Source: Chthoniobacter flavus
GTDB lineage: Bacteria > Verrucomicrobiota > Verrucomicrobiia > Chthoniobacterales > JACTMZ01
Direction: 5' to 3'
Assembly: GCA_945871065.1 (NCBI GenBank)
Contig: CAMBUL010000026.1
Span: 1-34,097, forward strand
DNA length: 34,097 nucleotides
The notes beneath the pieces were generated by a model that was given only the letters and a program-made list of their open reading frames with translations, did no database searches and was not told where the DNA came from. Each line of letters begins with the position of its first letter. Position 1 is the stretch's first letter. The translations under genes and the position numbers were made by a program. Of this stretch, positions 2,592 to 20,919 are shown in pieces.

Positions 2592-3194
2592 ATGCGCATC
2601 GCCATTTCCGGTTCCCATTCGCTCGGCAAATCGACCGTGGTCAATGACTGGGTTGCCTCCCGCGCCACCTACACCCGCGAGGAAGAACCCTACCGCGCCC
2701 TGGGTCTGCACGGACCCTACGAAATTCTTTTCCGCGACGCCTCGACGCGCCTGCATAATGGGATCCAGCTCTACTACAACATCAGCCGGCTCCACCGTTA
2801 CGCTTCGAGCGCGGAAGACGTCATCTTCGACCGCGCGCCGGTCGATTACCTCGCCTATTCGCAATACACCGCGGACTGCGGCACGACCGACATCGATGAT
2901 GCCTTTGTGCAATCGATGGTTCCCGCCGTGCGCGAGTCCCTCGATCACCTCGATATCCTCGCCTTCGTGCCTTGCTCGGAACAGTGGCCGGTGGCCATGG
3001 AGGAGGACGGTATCCGTCCGGTCGACCACGCCTACCGCGACGAGGTCGACGCCATTTTCAAGCAGATCTACCGCGAGGGACGGTTCGGCGTGATGCCCGG
3101 AAAAAACGCACCCCGCCTGATCGAACTTTGCGGCTCGCGCGAGCGGAGACTGGAACAGCTGGCGGAGGCCATCGCGGCCCTTGGCGCCGCCTGA
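2592..3194 (+). CDS. P-loop ATP/GTP-binding protein (AAA_28/NadR-kinase-like)
   Basis: 200-residue cytoplasmic protein beginning directly with a nucleotide-binding P-loop, G-S-H-S-L-G-K-S-T (residues 7-15), a Walker A motif. A later D-R-A-P-V-D-Y-L-A-Y resembles the D-R-x motif of deoxynucleoside-kinase-like and NadR-kinase-like P-loop proteins. An R-rich segment near residue 181 (RERR) could serve as the lid. The layout fits the AAA_28 group of small P-loop proteins, whose substrates are mostly unknown, so I give no substrate. There is no signal peptide or membrane segment. The ion-channel gene follows on the same strand after a gap of about 140 bp that holds two hairpins, so co-transcription is uncertain. 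Confidence 0.7.
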   Translation: MRIAISGSHSLGKSTVVNDWVASRATYTREEEPYRALGLHGPYEILFRDASTRLHNGIQLYYNISRLHRYASSAEDVIFDRAPVDYLAYSQYTADCGTTDIDDAFVQSMVPAVRESLDHLDILAFVPCSEQWPVAMEEDGIRPVDHAYRDEVDAIFKQIYREGRFGVMPGKNAPRLIELCGSRERRLEQLAEAIAALGAA

Positions 3195-3236: not shown

Positions 3237-3337
3237 GGTCTGATCCGCGAATTCCAGCGGCAAAACTCGCCTCCAACCTGCCGCTCTGCTAAGCAAACGG
3301 AATGGCATGCCGCCGGAACGACCATGACGCCCCGCAA

Positions 3338-4441
3338 ATGATTCCCCGCCTGCTCCGGATCTTCCGTGCCTTCGCCCTTCCGCCGGTCTGGGTTGCAGGG
3401 TTGATTTTTCTGGTCACCCCCCTGGGCGGGGCGCACGCCATCGAAGCCGGGATGCCGAATCCACCGGCCTCGCCGACGGTGGTGAAGGTGGGGGTCTTCC
3501 TCGCCGATATCCTCGATCTGGACGAAGTGAATGAAACTTTCCAAGTCGAACTCATCACGGTGGCGGAGTGGGATGACCCGCGACTGGCCTTCGATCCGGC
3601 GGTGGAAGGAACGGAGACAAAACTTTTCCAGGGACAAACCCAATTCAACGAAGTCTTCGCCGGTTGGTGGCCGCAATTGGTGATCATCAACGAAACCGGG
3701 GCGGGCGACACCAGCGCCATCAAGATCGAGGTTCGCGCGGACGGACGGGCCCGCTTCCTGGAGGCGCGGAACGTCACGTTAGAGACCCCCATGAAGTTGC
3801 AACCATTCCCGTTCGACAGACAAACGCTGGAGGCCAGGATGGTGGCCTTCGGCAACGACAGCGGACAGGTGCTTCTGGAGGTGAACGAACGAATGCTGGG
3901 TGCCACCAAAGAGTACGCCATGGAAAACGGCCTGCTCAATATCGCACAATGGCGCCTGCTCAAGCTCGACATGGAAGCCAGGCTGTCGAACCAACGCTAC
4001 TACGGGGAATCGAAGCCGATTTCCGAGTTCCTTTTCACCATCACCCTGCAGCGCGAATCGGCGAGCGTCGTCTGGAAGGTGATCCTGCCGCTGATCATCC
4101 TCGTGCTGTTGATGTGGTCCATCTTCTGGATGGAGGTCGACAACCTCTCGGACCGGCTGAATGTCGCCTTCATCGGCATCCTGACCATTGTCGCCTACCA
4201 GTTCCTCATCGAGGGTTCCATGCCGCGCAAATCCTACTTCACGTTCACGGACACAGTCCTGCTCTACTCGTTCGTGGTGATGTGCCTCTCCGTCCTCGAA
4301 AGTCTCGTTCTCACCTCGATGTGCAAGGCGGGGCACAAAGCCGCGGCACAGCGGGTGGACCATGTGGCCCGGTGGGCGTTCCCCCTCGTTTACTTCGCCG
4401 GCCTCACGCTGAGTTACTTCTACTACGTGATCCGCTATTAG
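3338..4441 (+). CDS. Pentameric ligand-gated ion channel (Cys-loop family, GLIC/ELIC-like)
   Basis: 367-residue membrane protein. ATG 3338 gives a signal peptide (hydrophobic VWVAGLIFLV, cleavage near AHA-IE at 34-35). The extracellular beta-sandwich domain (about 45-240) holds the family signature F-P-F-D-x-Q at 157-162, without the flanking cysteines, as in prokaryotic members. Four membrane helices follow: M1 about 245-265 with the conserved Pro251, M2 272-292, M3 302-326, M4 346-364. By hand alignment to GLIC through the conserved Pro296 after M2, pore positions are Asp272 (-1'), Arg273 (0'), Asn275 (2'), Ile279 (6') and Leu282 (9', the usual hydrophobic gate). An acidic -1' ring would favour cations. 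There is only a short M3-M4 linker. In this family an outside ligand or protons open the pore. The ligand here is unknown. Confidence 0.9.
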   Translation: MIPRLLRIFRAFALPPVWVAGLIFLVTPLGGAHAIEAGMPNPPASPTVVKVGVFLADILDLDEVNETFQVELITVAEWDDPRLAFDPAVEGTETKLFQGQTQFNEVFAGWWPQLVIINETGAGDTSAIKIEVRADGRARFLEARNVTLETPMKLQPFPFDRQTLEARMVAFGNDSGQVLLEVNERMLGATKEYAMENGLLNIAQWRLLKLDMEARLSNQRYYGESKPISEFLFTITLQRESASVVWKVILPLIILVLLMWSIFWMEVDNLSDRLNVAFIGILTIVAYQFLIEGSMPRKSYFTFTDTVLLYSFVVMCLSVLESLVLTSMCKAGHKAAAQRVDHVARWAFPLVYFAGLTLSYFYYVIRY

Positions 4442-4563: not shown

Positions 4564-7326
4564 TCAGGATGATTTTTCGGAGGGATCCGCGCCGCACGGC
4601 CGCGGCAAGTAGGCTTGGAGTTGCGGGAGGAGTTTTTTGATGATGGAGCCGTCTTTGGTGATGAGCGAATGGACGCGGCCGCTGAGGCGTCCGCGGTCTT
4701 CTTCGGTCAGGTCTTTCGCCGTGACGACGATCACCGGGGTGTGGACGTAGCGAGGATCGCGGCGGAAGTGGTCGAGGAATTCAAAGCCGTCCATGCGCGG
4801 CATCATGAGGTCGAGGAGGACGAGCGATGGCTCGGTCTCGCGCACGGCCTCGAGCGCGGCCACGCCGTCGCCGGCGAGGAGAACTTTCCAACCCTGCTTG
4901 ACCATGGTGCGTTGGAGTTGGTCGCGCGAAGCTTCGTCGTCTTCCACGATGAGCACGGTGCGGGCCTGCGCGCCGAGATCGAGACGCTCGAGGGTGCCGC
5001 GCAACCGCGTCCAATCAACCGGCTTGGCCAGGTAATCGAAGACCCCGAGGGCCACGCCCATTTCGCGGCTGTCGGTGATGGTGACGAGAATGATCGGGAT
5101 GTGCGCGGTGGCGGGGTCGGCTTTGAGCGCGTTGATGACCGACCAGCCGTCCATGCCGGGCATCATCACATCGGTCGTGATGGCCACGGGATGTTTCGTC
5201 TTGGCCAACTCGAGGCCGTCGCGGCCGTTGCTCGCGGTGTGCACGTCGAAACCTTCCTTGGTCAGGAAACGGCTCATCAGGTCGAGCACGGTCGGATCGT
5301 CGTCGATCACCACGACGGAGGGACGTCCGGATGTTCCAGTCGTGCCGGCTGGCGCGGCCGCGGCGGGTGCGGCCGGCACCTCCTCCTGCGGTGCCGCGGC
5401 CGGCAAGGCGACGGTGAAGGTCGAACCCTCGCCCGGAACGCTCTCCACGGTGATATCGCCCCCGAGCAGCCGGCAAAAATCGCGACTGATGGCGAGGCCG
5501 AGCCCAGTGCCGCCGAATTTGCGCGTGGTCGAGGCGTCAGCTTGGCTGAAGGCTTGGAAGAGGCGCCCTATCTGCTCCGGCGTCATGCCGATGCCGCTGT
5601 CGCTCACCGCGAAGCGCAGCCAGTCGGCGCCGTTTTCCACGCTGCGCGTGACGACGAGCCGGAGTTTTCCTTTCTCGGTGAACTTGCTCGCGTTGCTCAG
5701 GAGGTTGAAAAGCATCTGGCGGATTTTGGTCAGATCGCTGTGCATCGTGCCGGAGTCAGCAGGGAGTTCGACCTCGAGGTGGTTGTCGTTCTTTTTGACC
5801 AGCGGGAGCACGGTCGATTCGACTTCGCGCACCATGGTGGCCACATCGATCGTCTCGCAATAGATGGTCATTTTTCCGGCCTCGATCTTTGAAAGGTCGA
5901 GCACGTCGTTGATCAGCCCGAGGAGGTGCTTGCCGGCGCTGTGGATTTTTTTCAGGTCGGGGATGAATTCGTCCTGCCCGAGATCCTGCATCTCCTCGGT
6001 GAGCATTTCGCTGTAGCCGATAATGGCGTTCATCGGGGTACGCAATTCGTGGCTCATATTGGCCAAGAAAGCGCTCTTCGTGCGGTTGGCTTCCTCGGCC
6101 TGGTCCCGGGCCTCGGCCAACTCCTCGGTGCGCACGCGCACTTTTTCGTCCATCGTCTCGATCATCTCGCGCAACTGGCCGGTCATATGGTTGAAGTCGC
6201 GGGCCAGATCGCCGATTTCATTGCTGCTGCGCACCTCGGCGCGGCGGTGCAGGTTGCCCGAGGCAACCTCGTGCGCGGCGGCGGTGAGTTCCTCGATAGG
6301 ACGGGAGAACGAGCGCGCCACCAACCAGGCGGCCAGCGCGGCGAGAAGGCCGCTGACCAGCGCGATGCCGGCGGACAATTTGCGCAGGAGCGAGACCGGA
6401 GCGAAGGCTTCGTCGTCGTCGACCTTCACCACCACGCCCCAGCGCAGCGCGGGCAGGTATTGCCAGACGGCGAGCACGGATTTCCCGCGGTAATCGGTAT
6501 CGGGCCCGAAGCCGGGCAGGCCCTTCATGCTGGCGCGCAGTGCGGCGGAAGGCCCCTCGGCCGGCACGCGCAGACGGAAGGCCGCCTCCGGGTCATGCCG
6601 TGTCGGGGCCACAGCCATGAGCCCGTCGGCGTGTTCGGCCACCACAACCATCTCGCCGGTCGCACCAAGGCCGGAGGTGTCGCTGATCACGCGGTTGATC
6701 TCCGCCGCGCCGATCTGCAACACGGCCAGCCCGCGATACTTCCCGCCGGCCAGCACGGGCACGGCAATGAACGTGGCGGGCAACGCGTCGGGTCCGTAGA
6801 AATCGAAATCCGATTGCTCGAGCCCGAGGGTGAAGCGGGCGGACTGCGCGGTGCGGCCCAGCGTGGTGCCGGCCACGGGAAACTCGTCGAGCTTCACGCC
6901 GAAATCAGGACCGCGGGCGGTGGAAAAAACAATCCGGCCATCCGGATCGATGAGGTAAATGTCGTCGGTGCCAATCGATTCCGCGGCGCGCCGCAGGAAC
7001 GGCGCGAAGCGCGCGGCGGCCGCGGCGTGGAGGTTTTCGTCGAGCGCACCATTCTTCCAGGCGGCGGAAAATACGCCGATGGCCTCGGCCGTGCCCGGGT
7101 TCACCGCGAGGACAAGTAAGTCACGTTCCTGCCCGCGCAAGAACGTTTCGACCTGCCGGCCGAGGTTGTTGGCCATGGCCCGGAGGTTGTTTTCGATCTG
7201 GTCGGTGAGAAGTTGCCGGGCGGTGCGCGTGGTGAGAAACGCGGCGGCGATGAGCGGCAGCAGGGTCAGAAGCAAAAACCAGACGAGCAATTGCCTGGCG
7301 ATGCGGGAGCGGCGGGACTTTTTCAT
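4564..7326 (-). CDS. Hybrid sensor histidine kinase with two receiver domains
   Basis: 920-residue inner-membrane kinase. I chose ATG 7326 (MKKSRR) because it overlaps the stop of the upstream receptor gene as ATGA and directly precedes the first membrane helix (12-31). Order of parts: TM1; a periplasmic Cache-like sensor (about 40-315); TM2 (317-337); HAMP (338-390); coiled coil (390-415); HisKA with phospho-acceptor His426 in S-H-E-L-R-T-P; HATPase (about 525-645) with [14 protein letters not shown] and G-T-G-L-G-L boxes; an Ala/Pro linker; receiver 1 (about 670-785, phospho-Asp719, in T-D-V-M-M-P); and receiver 2 (about 790-905, Asp839 in D-L-M-M-P). There is no Hpt domain or DNA-binding output, so phosphate must pass to a partner elsewhere. 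The receptor in front is the likely signal input. Confidence 0.9.
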
Positions 7327-8582
7327 GGCACGGGCGCGTCCTCTTCGCGCGGGCTGACCCATTTTCCACCCCACGAAGCGGCAAGATCTTTCTGCCAGCT
7401 CTCCCAGTCGACGCGCGTGCGGAAGAGCGGGAAGGGCATAGGGCGCACCGGTTTGTCCGAGGACCACACGATGTCGAACTGCCCATCGGGGCGGATGCGG
7501 CCGATGCGAGCGTATTTCCAGGTGTGTTGCGTGGGGCCGTCAATGTAAGCGAGGCCGCCCGGCGCGCGCATCCCCTGCCCGCCGATTTTGGCCAGCACGG
7601 CGGCGGGTTCGGCCGAGCCGGCGGCGCGCACGGCCTGCGCCCAGAGCATGACGCCGAAGTAGGCCGCCTCGAGCGGATCGGAGACGACACGGTCCGCGCC
7701 GAAACGCGCGCGGAATTTTTCGAGAAACGCGTTGTTCTCCGGCGTGTCGACGCTCTGAAAATAATTCCACGCAGCGTAGTTCCCCGCCATGGCCTCGGCG
7801 CCGAGTTCGGGCAATTCGGTTTCGCTGATGCTGAACGAAATGACGGGAAGGCGGTCCGGCGTGAAGCCTGCTTCGCGCAGGGCACGGAAGAACGCGACAT
7901 TCGAATCGCCGTTGATCGTGTTGAGGATGACCTCGGGTTTAGCCTCGACGATGGCCTCGATCATCGGGGCGACATTTTTCCCGCCGAGCGGGAGATACAA
8001 TTCGCCGACCACCTCGCCACCCAACGCGGCGACCTGGTCGCGGATGATTTCGTTGGCCGTGCGCGGGAAAACGTAATCCGACCCGACAAGGAAAACGCGC
8101 GGACCGAAGTTGGCCAAGGCGTAGCTCACCGCCGGCATGACCTGCTGGTTCGGCGTGGCGCCGGTGTAGACGATGTTGGGCGATTGCTCGAGACCCTCGT
8201 ATTGCACCGGATAAAAAAGCAGGTGGTGGTGTTTTTCGAAAACCGGACCGGCCGCCTTGCGGCTCGAAGATGTCCAGCACCCGAAGACCACGCTGACCCT
8301 CTCCTCCGTGATCAGCCGCTCGGCCTCGGCCGCAAAGTTGCCGGAGTCGGACGTGCCGTCGGCAATGACCGGTTCAAGCCGCCGCCCGAGGAGTCCGCCT
8401 TGGGCATTGATCTCCTCGATAGCCAGCAGGGTGGCATCGACCACCGGCCGCGCGCTGATCGCCAGGGTTCCGGTCATGGAATGCAAAATACCCACCCGGA
8501 TCGGCGCCTCGGCCGGCCGCAAGCAAGCGGCCAACGCCCCTGCAATGAAAAAGGAGGCCAGCAAGCGGGAAAAAGTCAGCAT
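7323..8582 (-). CDS. Lipoprotein receptor of the urea/short-chain-amide binding family (UrtA/AmiC-like)
   Basis: 419 residues. ATG 8582 gives a lipoprotein signal with lipobox L-A-A-C (Cys20), so the protein should be anchored in the periplasm. The rest is a type I periplasmic binding fold (Peripla_BP_5/6). It has [10 protein letters not shown] near the start, [12 protein letters not shown], a [12 protein letters not shown] motif and Y-P-V-Q-Y-E-G. These motifs are typical of the UrtA/FmdD/AmiC group that binds urea, short amides or related ligands. No permease or ATPase gene lies nearby. Instead it overlaps the hybrid kinase by 4 bp, which argues that it senses rather than transports, as TorT does for TorS. 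The exact ligand is not readable from sequence. Confidence 0.85.
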
Positions 8583-9051
8583 GGGGTAAAGGCGGCAGCA
8601 GAGAAATAGCTCCACAAGATTGGCAGCTTGCGGCGCCTGCGGCCAGCCGGTTTCGGTTCCACTCCTGCGGAAGGGACTGGCCAGAAAACCCCATCGTTGT
8701 TCGGGAGGATATTGGGGCTCGAGGCTTCGGCCCGTTTGCCGACAGTGGCATGGAGATTGGCCAGCGATGGACGTCCTCTACTTATCTTTGCCAAAAATCC
8801 CCTCAGCGGATCACTTTCTCTCTCGAAAAATCGCCTGCCCCTTTCGTCGAACCAGATCGCTGCGCCAGCTTTGCAAGGTTATCATTGTAAAGAACCACCC
8901 AACGGGAGACCGACTTGCTGTCTTAAGTTAAGATGTCTCTCGAGGCACCTGCTTCGGGAAGATGTTCATCGGGCCTTGGGCGATCGCAGCAAAGAGGCAG
9001 GACCCCGATGGAACTTTTCTTCAGAGCTCCTTTTCGCGCGGAATTCCTCGG
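8583..9051. other. 469-bp gap without a recognised gene
   Basis: The stretch between the receptor gene and mnmA (both on the minus strand) has short ORFs on both strands, but none has recognisable protein character. It should hold the promoter of the receptor-kinase operon near its left side. I compared it by eye with guanidine and cobalamin riboswitch cores, because the receptor might sense a nitrogen compound, and found no convincing match. A weak imperfect hairpin (GGAACT.../...AGCTCC, about 9008-9028) lies just after mnmA in its reading direction and might end that transcript. Confidence 0.5.
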
Positions 9052-10138: not shown

Positions 10139-10942
10139 TCAGCGCGCGGCACGCACCGCGGCAGCGACCGCTTTGACGCGATCGAGGTCGACGGGTGCGG
10201 TCCAATGGCCGTCCTTCTTCAACGCGGATCCGACAATGACCGCATCGGCATGCTGCAACATGGCCGCGGCGTTTTCCGCGGTGACCCCGGAACCGACAAT
10301 GACCGGCAACTTCGTCGCGCCGCGCGCGGACGAGAGATCGGCGGTCGAAGTTTCGCGTCCGGTCGCTTCGCCGGTGACGATGACCGCGTCCGCCCCGAAA
10401 AATTCCGCGGCCTTGACCGTTTCGGCGAGACTGACATCGGCCGTCACAGCGTGCGCCGCGTGTTTCTTTTTCAGATCGGCCCACACGGCGATGTGCTCCG
10501 CGCCGATTTGCTTGCGGTAGCGCAACAAAGGACCCGCGCAGGCATCCATCCATCCCTCGTCGGCGACGTGGCCGAAGACAAAGCCTTCGGTGCGGACGAA
10601 ATCCATCCCCGCCGCCAAGGCGACGGCAAGCGCAGCCTCATTGGCGCCGGCCAACACCTGCACGCCGCAGGGCAGATTGGTCGCCTCATTGATCGCACGG
10701 CAAACCGCGGTCATGGACGCGACGACTTCGGGCCCGACCTCGCGTTTGAGGTAGGGAATGTCGTGCATGTTCTCCACAAGGATGGCATCGCACCCGCCCT
10801 CGGCCAGCGCCCACACTTCCTGCACGGCGGCGCGAACCAATTCGTCCACCGTTTGCGACGCGCGCGGTGTGCCGGGCAAGGCGCCGACATGGACCATGCC
10901 GATGAGGGCTTTGGGTGGAAGAGTTGGGCTATTCATGGGCAT
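10139..10942 (-). CDS. BtpA/SgcQ-family TIM-barrel protein
   Basis: 267 residues, cytoplasmic. The N-terminal I-G-M-V-H-V-G-A-L-P-G-T-P is the signature of the BtpA/SgcQ family, followed by D-A-I-L-V-E-N-M-H-D-I-P-Y and G-V-Q-V-L-A-G-A-N. Near the C-terminus is P-V-I-V-G-S-G-V-T, a standard phosphate-binding loop of (beta/alpha)8 barrels. BtpA is needed for photosystem I assembly in cyanobacteria, but relatives are widespread in non-phototrophs, where the role is unknown. Phosphosugar or nucleoside metabolism has been guessed. ATG 10942 was chosen, and ATG 10936 is nearly as good. The link to mnmA hints at a nucleotide-related job, but this is inference. Confidence 0.85.
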   Translation of the reverse strand: MPMNSPTLPPKALIGMVHVGALPGTPRASQTVDELVRAAVQEVWALAEGGCDAILVENMHDIPYLKREVGPEVVASMTAVCRAINEATNLPCGVQVLAGANEAALAVALAAGMDFVRTEGFVFGHVADEGWMDACAGPLLRYRKQIGAEHIAVWADLKKKHAAHAVTADVSLAETVKAAEFFGADAVIVTGEATGRETSTADLSSARGATKLPVIVGSGVTAENAAAMLQHADAVIVGSALKKDGHWTAPVDLDRVKAVAAAVRAAR

Positions 10943-11059
10943 AGAGAGTTTGCGTCCATACAACCAAACGCGGGCCGGGGCGGCGACAAAAGATCAAGCG
11001 AGGGCCCCGGAAAAGGCGCAAACCTACGCAGCGGGGCCCCTGCAAGGACATGAGCATCA

Positions 11060-11186
11060 ACTTTTTTTATAAACGATCAAACTGCACATATTCTTGCGTA
11101 AGTATATATCAAGCATATATTTATAAATTCAACAAATATTATTGTTTTTGTTGTTTTATGCAATTTCAGGGCTATGATGAATTTTT
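11060..11186 (+). promoter_or_regulatory. AT-rich upstream region with candidate promoter for the pilin-like gene
   Basis: This is a strikingly AT-rich leader in otherwise GC-rich DNA. A candidate sigma-70-type promoter is TTGCGT (11094-11099), a 16-bp spacer, then TATATT (11116-11121). TATAAA at 11122-11127 is another possible -10. The AT bias could also attract nucleoid proteins. No Shine-Dalgarno site stands out before ATG 11187. Confidence 0.35.
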
Positions 11187-11753
11187 ATGTTCCCCTCCCA
11201 ACAAAGACCGTCCGCGGCCTTCACGGGCTTCACTCTCGTCGAGCTCATCGTGGTGATCGCCATCATCGCCGTCCTCGCCGCCCTCTCGATACCCTCGTAC
11301 TCCGCCATCACGGATCGTATTACCATTTCCAAGGTCAAAAACACGCACATGCGGGGACTGACCGCGACGATGGCCCTTTACCGTGCGGACAACATGAACA
11401 GGTGGCCCGCCCTGAAGGCGACCAACGGGGAGTTCAATTCTTGGTATGGGCCGCCGACCAAACTGGCCCAAGGCAAGGAGGTCATGAAGGCGCTCCGACC
11501 CTACTACGGGGCCGGCGACATCAAAGAGGACGGCACTTTCAAAGACCCGTGGGGCAACCAATACGCCATGAAGTGGGACATCGACAACAGCGGGAAACTT
11601 GAGTACTATGACAAAGCTAACCGGGAAAACATTTCGAAAGATTTTATCGTTGTCAGCCTGGGCAAAAACCGAACGCAGGACAATCCGAGGCTCAAGACCT
11701 CGGACGACGTCTTCAGTTTTTGCGCTTACGGTGACACGAATTTCTTCAAGTAG
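11187..11753 (+). CDS. Type II/IV pseudopilin-like protein (prepilin N-terminal cleavage motif)
   Basis: 188 residues. A short leader of 14 residues ends in Gly14, followed by F-T-L-V-E-L-I-V-V-I-A-I-I-A-V-L-A-A-L. This is a textbook prepilin peptidase site (cut after Gly14, Phe15 methylated, Glu19 at +5) with the hydrophobic helix that packs inside a pilus. The globular part has K-D-P-W-G-N-Q-Y-A, the GspG-like motif seen in major pseudopilins, so it belongs with the G-type pseudopilins used in type II secretion. No secretion or pilus genes are nearby. Single stand-alone genes of this kind are frequent in Verrucomicrobiota, Planctomycetota and Lentisphaerota. The C-terminal tail overlaps the remnant 3' end of the opposing nucleotidyltransferase frame. 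Confidence 0.85.
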   Translation: MFPSQQRPSAAFTGFTLVELIVVIAIIAVLAALSIPSYSAITDRITISKVKNTHMRGLTATMALYRADNMNRWPALKATNGEFNSWYGPPTKLAQGKEVMKALRPYYGAGDIKEDGTFKDPWGNQYAMKWDIDNSGKLEYYDKANRENISKDFIVVSLGKNRTQDNPRLKTSDDVFSFCAYGDTNFFK

Positions 11754-17855: not shown

Positions 17856-19382
17856 CTACGACTTCGCAAAGCACTTCGTCCCCCACCCGCACGGACCGTA
17901 GCAATCCGGCTTGGAGAAGCTGTGCATCTTCGGGGCCGGCGGGACATCACCCGGCTCGAGCTTCACGCTCTTCAGTGTGTCTTCGAGGCGGTTGAGCGTC
18001 TCGTCGAGCAGTTCCTGCGGCACGTTGAGCGCCGGCTCGATGCGGATGCTTTCCGCGCTGATCAAGGTCCCCGCGGTCAACACGCGGCGATGGAACATAC
18101 CCTGCGCGACCTTGTAACCAACGGTCGATGAAGGGAACTTCATGCCGATGAGCAGGCCCTGACCCGTCACCTCTTTCAAAATGTCCGGATAGCGTGCCTT
18201 CAGTTCGTTGAGCTTGGCCATCATGTAGTGGCCCTTGCGCGCGGCCTGGCCCGGAGTGTCTTCCTCGAACATAACCTCGATGGCGGCCAAGGCGGCCGCA
18301 CAGGCGATCGGGTTGCCACCCGTTGTCGTGGTGTGCATGAAGGGATTCGGTTCCATCACGCTCCAAATTTTCGCGGTGGAGAAAAAGCCACTGCAGGCCA
18401 CCACGCCGCCGCCGAGCGCTTTGCCGAAGCACATGATGTCCGGCGTCACTCCCGAATGGTCGACGCCGAAAAGTTTGCCCGTGCGACCGAAGCCGGTCTG
18501 CACCTCGTCGGCGATGAGCAGGACATTGTAGTAGTCGCAAATCGCGCGGAGGCGCGGCAGGAAGTCCGGCGGTGGCACAATGGCCCCCGCCTCGCCCTGC
18601 ACCGGTTCAATGATGACCGCGGCCATGCTGTCACCCACCATATGGGCTGCTTCGAGTTCCTTCTCCACCGCACAAGCGCAGCCATAGGGCACAAAGCGCA
18701 CGCCTTCGAGCAGAGGCAGGAGGGGTTGGCGGAAGACCGCTTTGCCGGTCACGGACAGCGACCCGAGTGTCTTCCCGTGGAACCCTTTCTGCATCGAAAT
18801 GATGCCCTTCTTCCCGGTGTAGAGCTTGGCCAATTTCAGCGCGCCTTCGATCGCTTCGGTCCCGCTGTTGGCAAAGAAGCCTTTTTGGATGTCCCCGGGG
18901 GTGATGTGCGCAATGACGCGGCCGAGTTGCGCGCGGAGGGGATCGAGCATTTCTTGGGAGTATTGCGGCGAGCGGTCGAGTTGCGCTTTGACCGCTTCGA
19001 TGATTTTCGGATGACGCAGTCCGTAGCTGTAGAGCCCGAAGCCGCCGAGCATGTCGATGAACTCGCGCCCAAGGGCATCACGGATCAGCGAGCCCTGGCC
19101 CTCCCACTCGGTGAAGGCGAATTCACCGCCGAGGGTGGCCGACTTGCGGTGTTCGAGAAACCCCGCATTGATGTGCTGGGCGAAATTTTCCACCGTCTGC
19201 TCGGCAATCCGCTGCCGCGCCTCAAGCGAGATGTCCTTGGCCGGCTTCTTGACCAGATCGAGCATCCACCGCGCTTCCTCCAAGGCGTATTCGTGATCGC
19301 GCAGATGCGGGGATTCCAAATGCTTGGATGAGACATCAGCCGCACTCGTCGCGCGGGAAGGAGGTGTTTCCGACAAAGCCAT
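17856..19382 (-). CDS. Putrescine-type class III aminotransferase (PatA/YgjG-like)
   Basis: 508 residues. The enzyme is a PLP-dependent fold type I class III aminotransferase. Much of the chain parallels E. coli YgjG (putrescine:2-oxoglutarate aminotransferase): H-I-N-A-G-F-L-E-H-R-K-S, G-G-F-G-L-Y, E-M-L-D-P-L-R-A, F-F-A-N-S-G-T-E-A-I-E, E-P-V-Q-G-E, D-E-V-Q-T-G-F-G-R-T-G-K, and the PLP lysine in C-F-G-K-A-L-G-G-G. The likely job is moving the amino group of putrescine or another diamine to 2-oxoglutarate. Ornithine-type activity cannot be excluded. ATG 19382 was chosen, with a TTG six codons earlier possible. The last 16 residues carry three cysteines (494, 498, 504), an addition not seen in E. 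coli YgjG. Confidence 0.85.
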   Translation of the reverse strand: MALSETPPSRATSAADVSSKHLESPHLRDHEYALEEARWMLDLVKKPAKDISLEARQRIAEQTVENFAQHINAGFLEHRKSATLGGEFAFTEWEGQGSLIRDALGREFIDMLGGFGLYSYGLRHPKIIEAVKAQLDRSPQYSQEMLDPLRAQLGRVIAHITPGDIQKGFFANSGTEAIEGALKLAKLYTGKKGIISMQKGFHGKTLGSLSVTGKAVFRQPLLPLLEGVRFVPYGCACAVEKELEAAHMVGDSMAAVIIEPVQGEAGAIVPPPDFLPRLRAICDYYNVLLIADEVQTGFGRTGKLFGVDHSGVTPDIMCFGKALGGGVVACSGFFSTAKIWSVMEPNPFMHTTTTGGNPIACAAALAAIEVMFEEDTPGQAARKGHYMMAKLNELKARYPDILKEVTGQGLLIGMKFPSSTVGYKVAQGMFHRRVLTAGTLISAESIRIEPALNVPQELLDETLNRLEDTLKSVKLEPGDVPPAPKMHSFSKPDCYGPCGWGTKCFAKS

Positions 19383-19436
19383 GATGTTTTTAATAAACAA
19401 CGGCCCACGCGGTCCCGCAAGGGGATTCGGGCCCGG

Positions 19437-20819
19437 TCACAGGGTGAATTCCCCCGCCTCAACAGGTTCGGCGCAACGTTTAGCGTGCACGCTAACCACC
19501 CGGCGCCCGTCGGTCTGGCTCACCGTGAACTCGTAACCGTCGATACGCACCGTCTCGCCCTTCTTGGGCAAATGGCCGAGTTCGTGGGTCAAATACCCGC
19601 CGATCGTGCTCACCTCGGTGCTTTCGACTTTCACCCCGATCAAATCCTCGAGATCGTGCAGCGCCACGCCGCCCTCGAGCTCGAATTCGTCTTCGCCGAC
19701 CTTGCGGTACTCCTCTTCGTCGGTGTCGAACTCGTCTTGGATTTCGCCGACCAATTCGGCCAGCACATTGTCGAGGGTGACCACCCCGACGGCACCGCCG
19801 TATTCGTCGACCACCACCGCCAAGTGCGCGCCTTTGCCGAGAAAAAGTTTGAGCAAGCGCTCGAGCGGCATCAGCTCCGGCACATGCAGAAGATCGCGCT
19901 TGATCGAGGCAAGGTCCGTCCTGTCCGCCTGGACCAGGGCGAGCAAGTCTTTGATATGGACCAGACCGATACTGTCGTCAAAGCGACCGCGGCAGAGCGG
20001 AAACCGCGTATGGCGCGATTCGAGGGCGGTGCCGATGTTGTCGTCGAAACTTTCCTCCAGATCGAGGAATACCACCTCGCCGCGCGGTGTCATAATGTCG
20101 CGCACCACGCGTTTGCGCAGATCGAGCGCGTTGATCAGGATCTCCCGGCCCAATGTGCTGACCGTTCCGCCATCGCCATCCGACGTGTTGCGCAGAAGGG
20201 TGCGCAACTCGTCCTCCGTATCCTCCCCCCCCAAACGCGGGTCAGGCGGGGTTCGCAGCACGGTGCGCAAGATCCAACCGGAGGCAAAATCGACCACCCG
20301 AACCAGCGGCCGCAGCGTGAAATGGAACAGCCGCATCGGCCCCGCCGTCCAAAGCATGATCTTCCGCGCACGGCGGATGGCGAGCAACTTCGGCACCTGT
20401 TCGCCGACCACCACATGAAGGAAAGCGAGCAGGGCAAAGACCGCCACGAAAGCGATGGCCGACCCCACCGCCTCGCTGCCGATCCCGGCCCAATACAACC
20501 ACGGCTCAAGCAGTCGGGCCACAAAGGGCGCGCCGACCCAGCCCAGTCCGAGACTGGTTAAAGTGATGCCGAGTTGCGCCGCCGAGAGGTAGGGCTGCGT
20601 GTTCTGCAGCATTTTGCGCACGCGGGCCCCGTTGCGGCGTCCACCGAAATCATCCTCCTCGTCCCAGCCGCCGGCGCGAAGCTTCACCATGGCAAACTCG
20701 GCCGCAACAAAGAATGCGTTGAGCAACAGGAGCGCCGCCACAGCCAGCAGGCGCAGGCTGGCACCATCGGCCACCTCCGGCAAGGCGGAGGCCATGGGTT
20801 GGTAATGCGGGAAATTCAT
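19437..20819 (-). CDS. CorC/HlyC-CNNM family membrane protein with CBS pair
   Basis: 460 residues. ATG 20819 (MNFPHYQP) was chosen because the hydrophobic CNNM domain follows. The upstream frame extension is basic and unlike the family. Order: CNNM/DUF21 membrane domain (about 20-190, with N-A-F-F-V-A-A-E-F-A and S-L-G-L-G-W-V-G), two CBS domains (about 220-345, with D-I-M-T-P-R at the first and V-V-V-D-E-Y-G-G at the end of the second), and a CorC_HlyC transporter-associated domain (about 365-445, with E-L-E-G-G-V). Such proteins are Mg2+ or other ion transport/efflux factors, often mislabelled hemolysins. It is transcribed with the S14 gene upstream. Confidence 0.9.
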   Translation of the reverse strand: MNFPHYQPMASALPEVADGASLRLLAVAALLLLNAFFVAAEFAMVKLRAGGWDEEDDFGGRRNGARVRKMLQNTQPYLSAAQLGITLTSLGLGWVGAPFVARLLEPWLYWAGIGSEAVGSAIAFVAVFALLAFLHVVVGEQVPKLLAIRRARKIMLWTAGPMRLFHFTLRPLVRVVDFASGWILRTVLRTPPDPRLGGEDTEDELRTLLRNTSDGDGGTVSTLGREILINALDLRKRVVRDIMTPRGEVVFLDLEESFDDNIGTALESRHTRFPLCRGRFDDSIGLVHIKDLLALVQADRTDLASIKRDLLHVPELMPLERLLKLFLGKGAHLAVVVDEYGGAVGVVTLDNVLAELVGEIQDEFDTDEEEYRKVGEDEFELEGGVALHDLEDLIGVKVESTEVSTIGGYLTHELGHLPKKGETVRIDGYEFTVSQTDGRRVVSVHAKRCAEPVEAGEFTL

Positions 20820-20919
20820 TATCGGATCGATCACGCTGATCAAAGGATGGTCAGAGCATCGGCTCCGGCGCGCGATCGACAACATCGGCGGCACCGGGCG
20901 GTGCCGCACGGGACACCAG

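Follow-up and report, generated by a model that had tools for sequence, protein, structure and literature searches.

No prokaryotic pentameric ligand-gated ion channel (pLGIC) had a known biological role as of 2016 (Jaiteh et al., PMC4795631). In the window analyzed here, a stretch of 34,097 nucleotides from a MAG that carries two pLGICs and belongs, judging by named relatives, to the Chthoniobacterales (Verrucomicrobiota), an initial annotation had read one gene as encoding such a channel. The locus raises the question of whether the gene does so, what would open the channel, and how the gene came to its present hosts.

The channel subunit and its relatives

Profile searches, monomer fold prediction and fold search concur, and sequence and model together confirm the proposed identity of the gene product as a bacterial pLGIC. 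Family similarity is clear: the Pfam model PF02931 (Neur_chan_LBD) matches at 2.5e-19 (70 bits; cut-off, 26), a PDB sequence search finds GLIC at 7.5e-33, and the NCBIfam model NF033918 (LGIC_1) aligns over positions 1 to 305 of 305. Since the score of this full-length match, 427.9 bits, is below the curated cut-off of 500, we did not assign the channel to LGIC_1 and treat it, on sequence grounds, as a sister group of that family within one clade. The Pfam transmembrane model likewise stays below its cut-off (23.2 versus 28.1 bits), a weakness compensated by the transmembrane helices of the AlphaFold2 (AF2) monomer. This model (input, an alignment of 49 homologues from genomes; pLDDT, 88.7) runs from a signal helix through the strands of the ECD to four helices, giving the predicted beta-sandwich and four-helix subunit. 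Foldseek gave 1107 PDB matches to it at E <= 0.001, the best being GLIC (TM by target, 0.91; E, 7.6e-27), followed by GABA-A, DeCLIC, glycine receptor and sTeLIC structures. Thus, at the monomer level, profiles, predicted fold and fold search all describe a pLGIC, with neither a deviating fold nor a lack of family similarity to speak against it; pentameric assembly would be expected from family knowledge. No solved structure closer than about 25% identity was found in the PDB, where an LGIC_1 protein from gammaproteobacteria, used as query, returned only GLIC, glycine receptors and ELIC.

The hallmarks named in the initial annotation (FPFDxQ, the M1 Pro, Leu9', Asp-1' and the Pro after M2) were all read correctly from sequence and alignment, prime numbering included (Table 1). 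The aromatic-Pro-aromatic-Asp motif is F169-P-F-D172, R251 precedes M1, and the Pro after M2 lies in SMPRKSY; four transmembrane helices, the M1 Pro, a basic 0' residue, Leu9' and the M2-M3 loop Pro are all present. Across the 49 homologues, the Pro-loop Pro and the Arg that closes the ECD are invariant and the M2-M3 Pro is nearly so. The Cys-loop cysteine pair is absent, with no Cys around residues 155 to 185, and profiles, sequence and AF2 model reveal no extra N-terminal sensor domain, the signal peptide alone preceding the ECD. An alternative start at 3338, the internal Met13 of the longest frame and the start given in the initial annotation, would give a 367-aa product. One relative retains the 12 extra N-terminal residues and others have lost or substituted them; either start yields an identical mature protein. 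With dN/dS values of about 0.15 to 0.24 against relatives, the gene is under purifying selection. A promoter/terminator scan and Rfam gave no match above chance.

Table 1. Coordinates of the channel gene, its predicted parts and its neighbors in the window
Feature	Position	Strand	Basis or remark
AAA_28 (NadR/P-loop-kinase-like) gene, upstream of channel	2592..3194	+	PF13521
pLGIC subunit gene, longest ORF	3302..4441	+	open, complete, 379 aa + stop; profile and PDB matches
Predicted signal peptide, residues 13-46, ending ...GGAHA	3338..3439	+	sequence, alignment; low-confidence N-terminal helix in model
Extracellular (periplasmic) ligand-binding beta-sandwich domain	3440..4057	+	PF02931 residues 55-252; AF2 strands
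Glu78, counterpart of GLIC proton sensor E35	3533..3535	+	alignment
Pro-loop FPFDRQ, residues 169-174	3806..3823	+	sequence; same Pro in all 49 homologues
M1 helix with conserved Pro (VILPLII)	4058..4129	+	AF2 helix, alignment
M2 pore helix, D-1' R0' N2' I6' L9' A13' F16' L17'	4145..4219	+	AF2 helix, pore mapping
M3 helix	4244..4327	+	AF2 model
M4 helix	4337..4435	+	AF2 model
dCache hybrid histidine kinase	4564-7467	opposite to channel	
UrtA-like periplasmic binding protein	7323-8615	opposite to channel	

In the tree, the channel and four close relatives form a group (support, 100/100) that is joined first by three further Verrucomicrobiota plus Bythopirellula (98/96) and next by three LGIC_1 proteins from gammaproteobacteria (95/87). 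The resulting 12-member branch, spanning Verrucomicrobiota, Planctomycetota and gammaproteobacteria, is nested in a 21-member clade (99/99); some deep branches of the tree are long and of uncertain order. One branch member is carried by a cultured Planctomycetota isolate, Bythopirellula polymerisocia. The LGIC_1 model matches 16 of 388 Verrucomicrobiota genomes, and in the samples of Planctomycetota and gammaproteobacteria it matches 26 of 343 and 17 of 321, respectively; to call prokaryotic members uncommon was thus fair.

The second pLGIC of the host (L002, G000:C19, 1011-2072, minus strand; 353 aa) is ~31% identical to the window channel, sits in a sister clade and has Ser2' and Val6'. It fits the species relationships for the nearest relative, G005, and is only 61% identical in G006. 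Other Verrucomicrobiota have a PBP-I domain (Peripla_BP_6) fused to a pLGIC-like C terminus (L021, L023 and L067), an arrangement already known from the work of Tasneem et al. (PMC549065).

Proposed mechanism, ligand site and acid pH

We propose that the protein is probably a homopentameric, Pro-loop (Cys-loop-less) ligand-gated channel of the inner membrane that conducts cations and is gated by a small molecule, possibly with the assistance of protons. The signal peptide would direct the beta-sandwich domain into the periplasm, where the small molecule, perhaps helped by protons, would act at the subunit interfaces. The ensuing movement would reach the M2 helices by way of the Pro-loop, the Glu78-bearing beta1-beta2 loop and the M2-M3 loop, and opening of the Leu9' gate would then let cations flow. 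A search for functional data on members of the branch found none. As the main trigger we lean toward a small-molecule agonist, with acid pH as the weaker contender.

Activation of ELIC by amines needs Glu77 and Glu131. The corresponding positions are V127 and V181 in the channel and are never acidic in the 12 closest members; the equivalents of ELIC F19, F133 and Y175 (F66, F183 and Y233) are aromatic in 12 of 12. An aromatic cage kept without the acids makes ELIC-type amines unlikely agonists, and because both ligand acids are missing, the ligand would be something other than ELIC's primary amines. Elsewhere in the window (17856-20909, minus strand), 13 kb from the channel, a putrescine-aminotransferase-like gene (607.9 bits; cut-off, 612) lies beside a CNNM/CorC-type gene that also resembles, below cut-off, the polyamine exporter PaeA. 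These polyamine-related genes are notable solely because ELIC responds to putrescine-type amines.

The alternative that survives best is a channel gated by protons as in GLIC, wherein low periplasmic pH would protonate Glu78 and nearby acids of the ECD-TMD interface and so open the pore, the orthosteric pocket binding modulators only; we regard it as unlikely, if far from negligible. Eight GLIC residues alter proton activation (E26, D32, E35, D122, E222, H235, E243 and H277), E35 being the key proton sensor (PMC5760087). Five of these eight positions (26, 32, 35, 122 and 243) are acidic in the channel, Glu78 at the E35 position among them, which makes acid pH a fair candidate trigger, and the E35 position is Glu in all 21 clade members versus 1 of 43 other homologues, which suggests that acid pH plays some part. 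However, E222, H235 and H277 are replaced by S, I and T, and the branch also conserves two aromatic residues of the pocket, F183 and Y233. Moreover, GLIC with a neutralized E35 retains its pH gating (PMC5760087), so that the E35 position alone is insufficient for a proton-gated channel. Gating by a small molecule, with protons in a possible assisting role, is the reading that we prefer.

Lateral transfer and gene neighborhood

The housekeeping gene for PNPase, also located in the window, was the reference for the history of the channel gene; the dS values are simple Nei-Gojobori/Jukes-Cantor estimates for comparison use only. Identity to Bythopirellula, a member of another phylum, is 70% for the channel and 49% for PNPase; for G084, from another family, the figures are 86% and 78%, with dS of 0.39 versus 1.04. 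Transfer of the channel gene between phyla and families would be the simplest reading. In G084 (Terrimicrobiaceae; L055, G084:C8), two direct copies of an IS200-like (Y1) transposase element (5160-6198 and 10248-11286; 1039 bp, 97% identical) closely flank the channel gene, an extra 35-bp terminal repeat (8953-8987) stands right behind the channel's stop codon, and DNA similarity to the window spans little beyond the channel gene.

Against G005, the channel is 82% identical and PNPase 99%. There, the channel and the AAA_28 gene next to it have dS values of 0.50 and 0.41, whereas the kinase, UrtA, PNPase and the second channel have 0.11, 0.19, 0.22 and 0.13, respectively. The simplest reading would be replacement of the AAA_28-channel segment, the G005 lineage being the more likely place. 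Mis-binning is unlikely to explain this odd divergence, as the channel, the kinase (98%) and PNPase (99%) share one 36.7-kb contig. The values against G010 and G006 fit vertical descent. Carriage by phages, viruses or plasmids was considered and rejected, with 0 matches in phages, 0 in viral contigs and a single plasmid match, from Legionella, at 25% identity. That bacterial pLGICs are patchily distributed and laterally transferred has been inferred earlier (Tasneem et al., PMC549065; Jaiteh et al., PMC4795631), and our transfer figures are a clean example of this and no new principle.

AAA_28 precedes the channel in the four same-genus channel-carrying genomes and nowhere else, and in three same-genus genomes the kinase and UrtA-like gene follow on the other strand. 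We discarded an AAA_28-channel operon, since the arrangement is limited to the genus and AAA_28 also occurs without the channel (in G003 and as a second copy on C17). The two AAA_28 copies of the host (that of the window and L052, 270-866, C17) share 92% aa identity, and in relatives several copies sit at the ends of contigs, as repeats in an assembly would.

The same neighborhood would accommodate a sensory set, in which the UrtA-like protein presents the ligand to both the channel and the dCache kinase. These genes are adjacent in the window, G005 and G006, bacterial pLGICs fused to, or in operons with, PBP and Cache domains have been described (Tasneem et al., PMC549065), and PBP-I fusions occur elsewhere in the order. 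Such a set is nevertheless improbable: the kinase and the binding protein lie on the strand opposite to the channel, a 13-kb gap separates channel and kinase in G010, G003 has AAA_28 and the kinase/UrtA pair without a channel, and such neighbors are absent in G084, Bythopirellula, G320, G223, G220 and the gammaproteobacteria. Since neither the pair nor AAA_28 is kept beside the channel elsewhere, the tempting PBP/Cache link is weak, and we rejected a functional tie to the pair as the main explanation. Instead, the single-gene transfer pattern suggests a channel without need of dedicated partners.

The intervening stretch in G010 (L051, G010:C1, 3787-16812) encodes PEP-CTERM and fibronectin-type proteins, absent in the window, and contains a 45-bp repeat of the 3' end of the kinase gene. 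In the gammaproteobacterial LGIC_1 genomes (L136, L137 and L138), the channel follows, in conserved order, a 218-aa gene that by eye resembles a site-2 (M50) protease.

The pore and comparison with known systems

The M2 helix reads S-2' D-1' R0' L1' N2' V3' A4' F5' I6' G7' I8' L9' T10' I11' V12' A13' Y14' Q15' F16' L17' and, of all solved structures, has its closest match by sequence in the M2 of ELIC. In 12 of 12 branch members, S-2' D-1' R0' L1' N2' F5' I6' G7' I8' L9' A13' Y14' Q15' F16' L17' are fixed, and Asn2'/Ile6'/Gly7' is, as far as the aligned sequences tell, a fixed subfamily signature. Pore mapping bears out the earlier remark that the lining (N2' I6' L9' A13') is unlike that of GLIC. 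Position 6' is hydrophobic (Ile, Val or Met) throughout the 21-member clade versus 1 of 43 other homologues, the remaining 42 having Thr, Gly, Ser or Ala (GLIC, Ser; ELIC, Thr), although these counts are not independent trials, the sequences being related. The pores of cation-selective pLGICs are lined by three hydrophobic layers in their outer half and, in the inner half, by two polar layers and an acidic one (PMC3119659); in the predicted pore of our channel, one normally polar layer, 6', is hydrophobic. This difference is the firm part of the suggestion in the initial annotation that conductance could differ.

Since 6' is a polar layer in cation-selective pLGICs, the Ile might make the pore conduct poorly. 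A degenerate non-conducting channel or pure receptor, whose 6' hydrophobic ring, polar or small in other pLGICs, would stay dewetted so that it either signals with no flow of ions or does not signal, is nonetheless the least probable of the readings, as the Asn2' and Asp-1' rings are retained and M2 differs at no position between the Verrucomicrobiota and Planctomycetota proteins, which together with the low dN/dS indicates a pore under strong constraint. For the conducting channel that we favor, Asp-1' hints weakly at cation selectivity, because residues before M2 are not in general predictive of selectivity in prokaryotic pLGICs (Jaiteh et al., PMC4795631).

The channel joins a known superfamily; its branch is little studied, its pore is distinctive and conserved, and the signs of lateral transfer are clear. 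We suggest only tentatively, and with more doubt than confidence, that the branch has its own type of gating and conduction, combining a 6' hydrophobic ring above the Asn2' ring, a GLIC-like interface Glu and a pocket without the ELIC acids, and that the gene, exchanged between bacteria singly, equips its hosts with a self-contained sensor of some ligand widespread in the environment. Given the strongly conserved pocket frame, the fixed unusual pore, a cultured isolate and the lack of a solved structure, the branch is a practical new model, useful for studying 6' pore hydrophobicity and interface protonation in pLGICs.

The channel aligns with LGIC_1 (NF033918) over all 305 positions and shares with it the clade and the signature SDRLN-[VI]-[AS]-FIGIL, but it is 40 to 42% identical to the three gammaproteobacterial sequences above cut-off. 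GLIC (Gloeobacter violaceus) resembles it in fold (TM, 0.91), in the Pro-loop and in the acids at 26, 32, 35, 122 and 243, whereas identity is about 22%, H235, E222 and H277 have no counterpart, and the GLIC pore has T2' S6' I9' in place of N2' I6' L9'. The amine-gated ELIC (Erwinia/Dickeya) has in common with it the acid at -1', Arg0', Leu1', Phe5', Leu9', Ala13', Tyr14' and Phe16' and the aromatic F19, F133 and Y175 positions; it differs at E77 and E131 (both Val in the channel), Y38 and F188 (both Ile) and in its Q2' T6' versus N2' I6'. DeCLIC and sTeLIC share the pLGIC fold at 21 to 25% identity, and DeCLIC's extra N-terminal domains are absent from the channel. Animal Cys-loop receptors share the overall fold, the Pro-loop core and Leu9', whereas the channel lacks the Cys-loop cysteines and has just a short M3-M4 linker.
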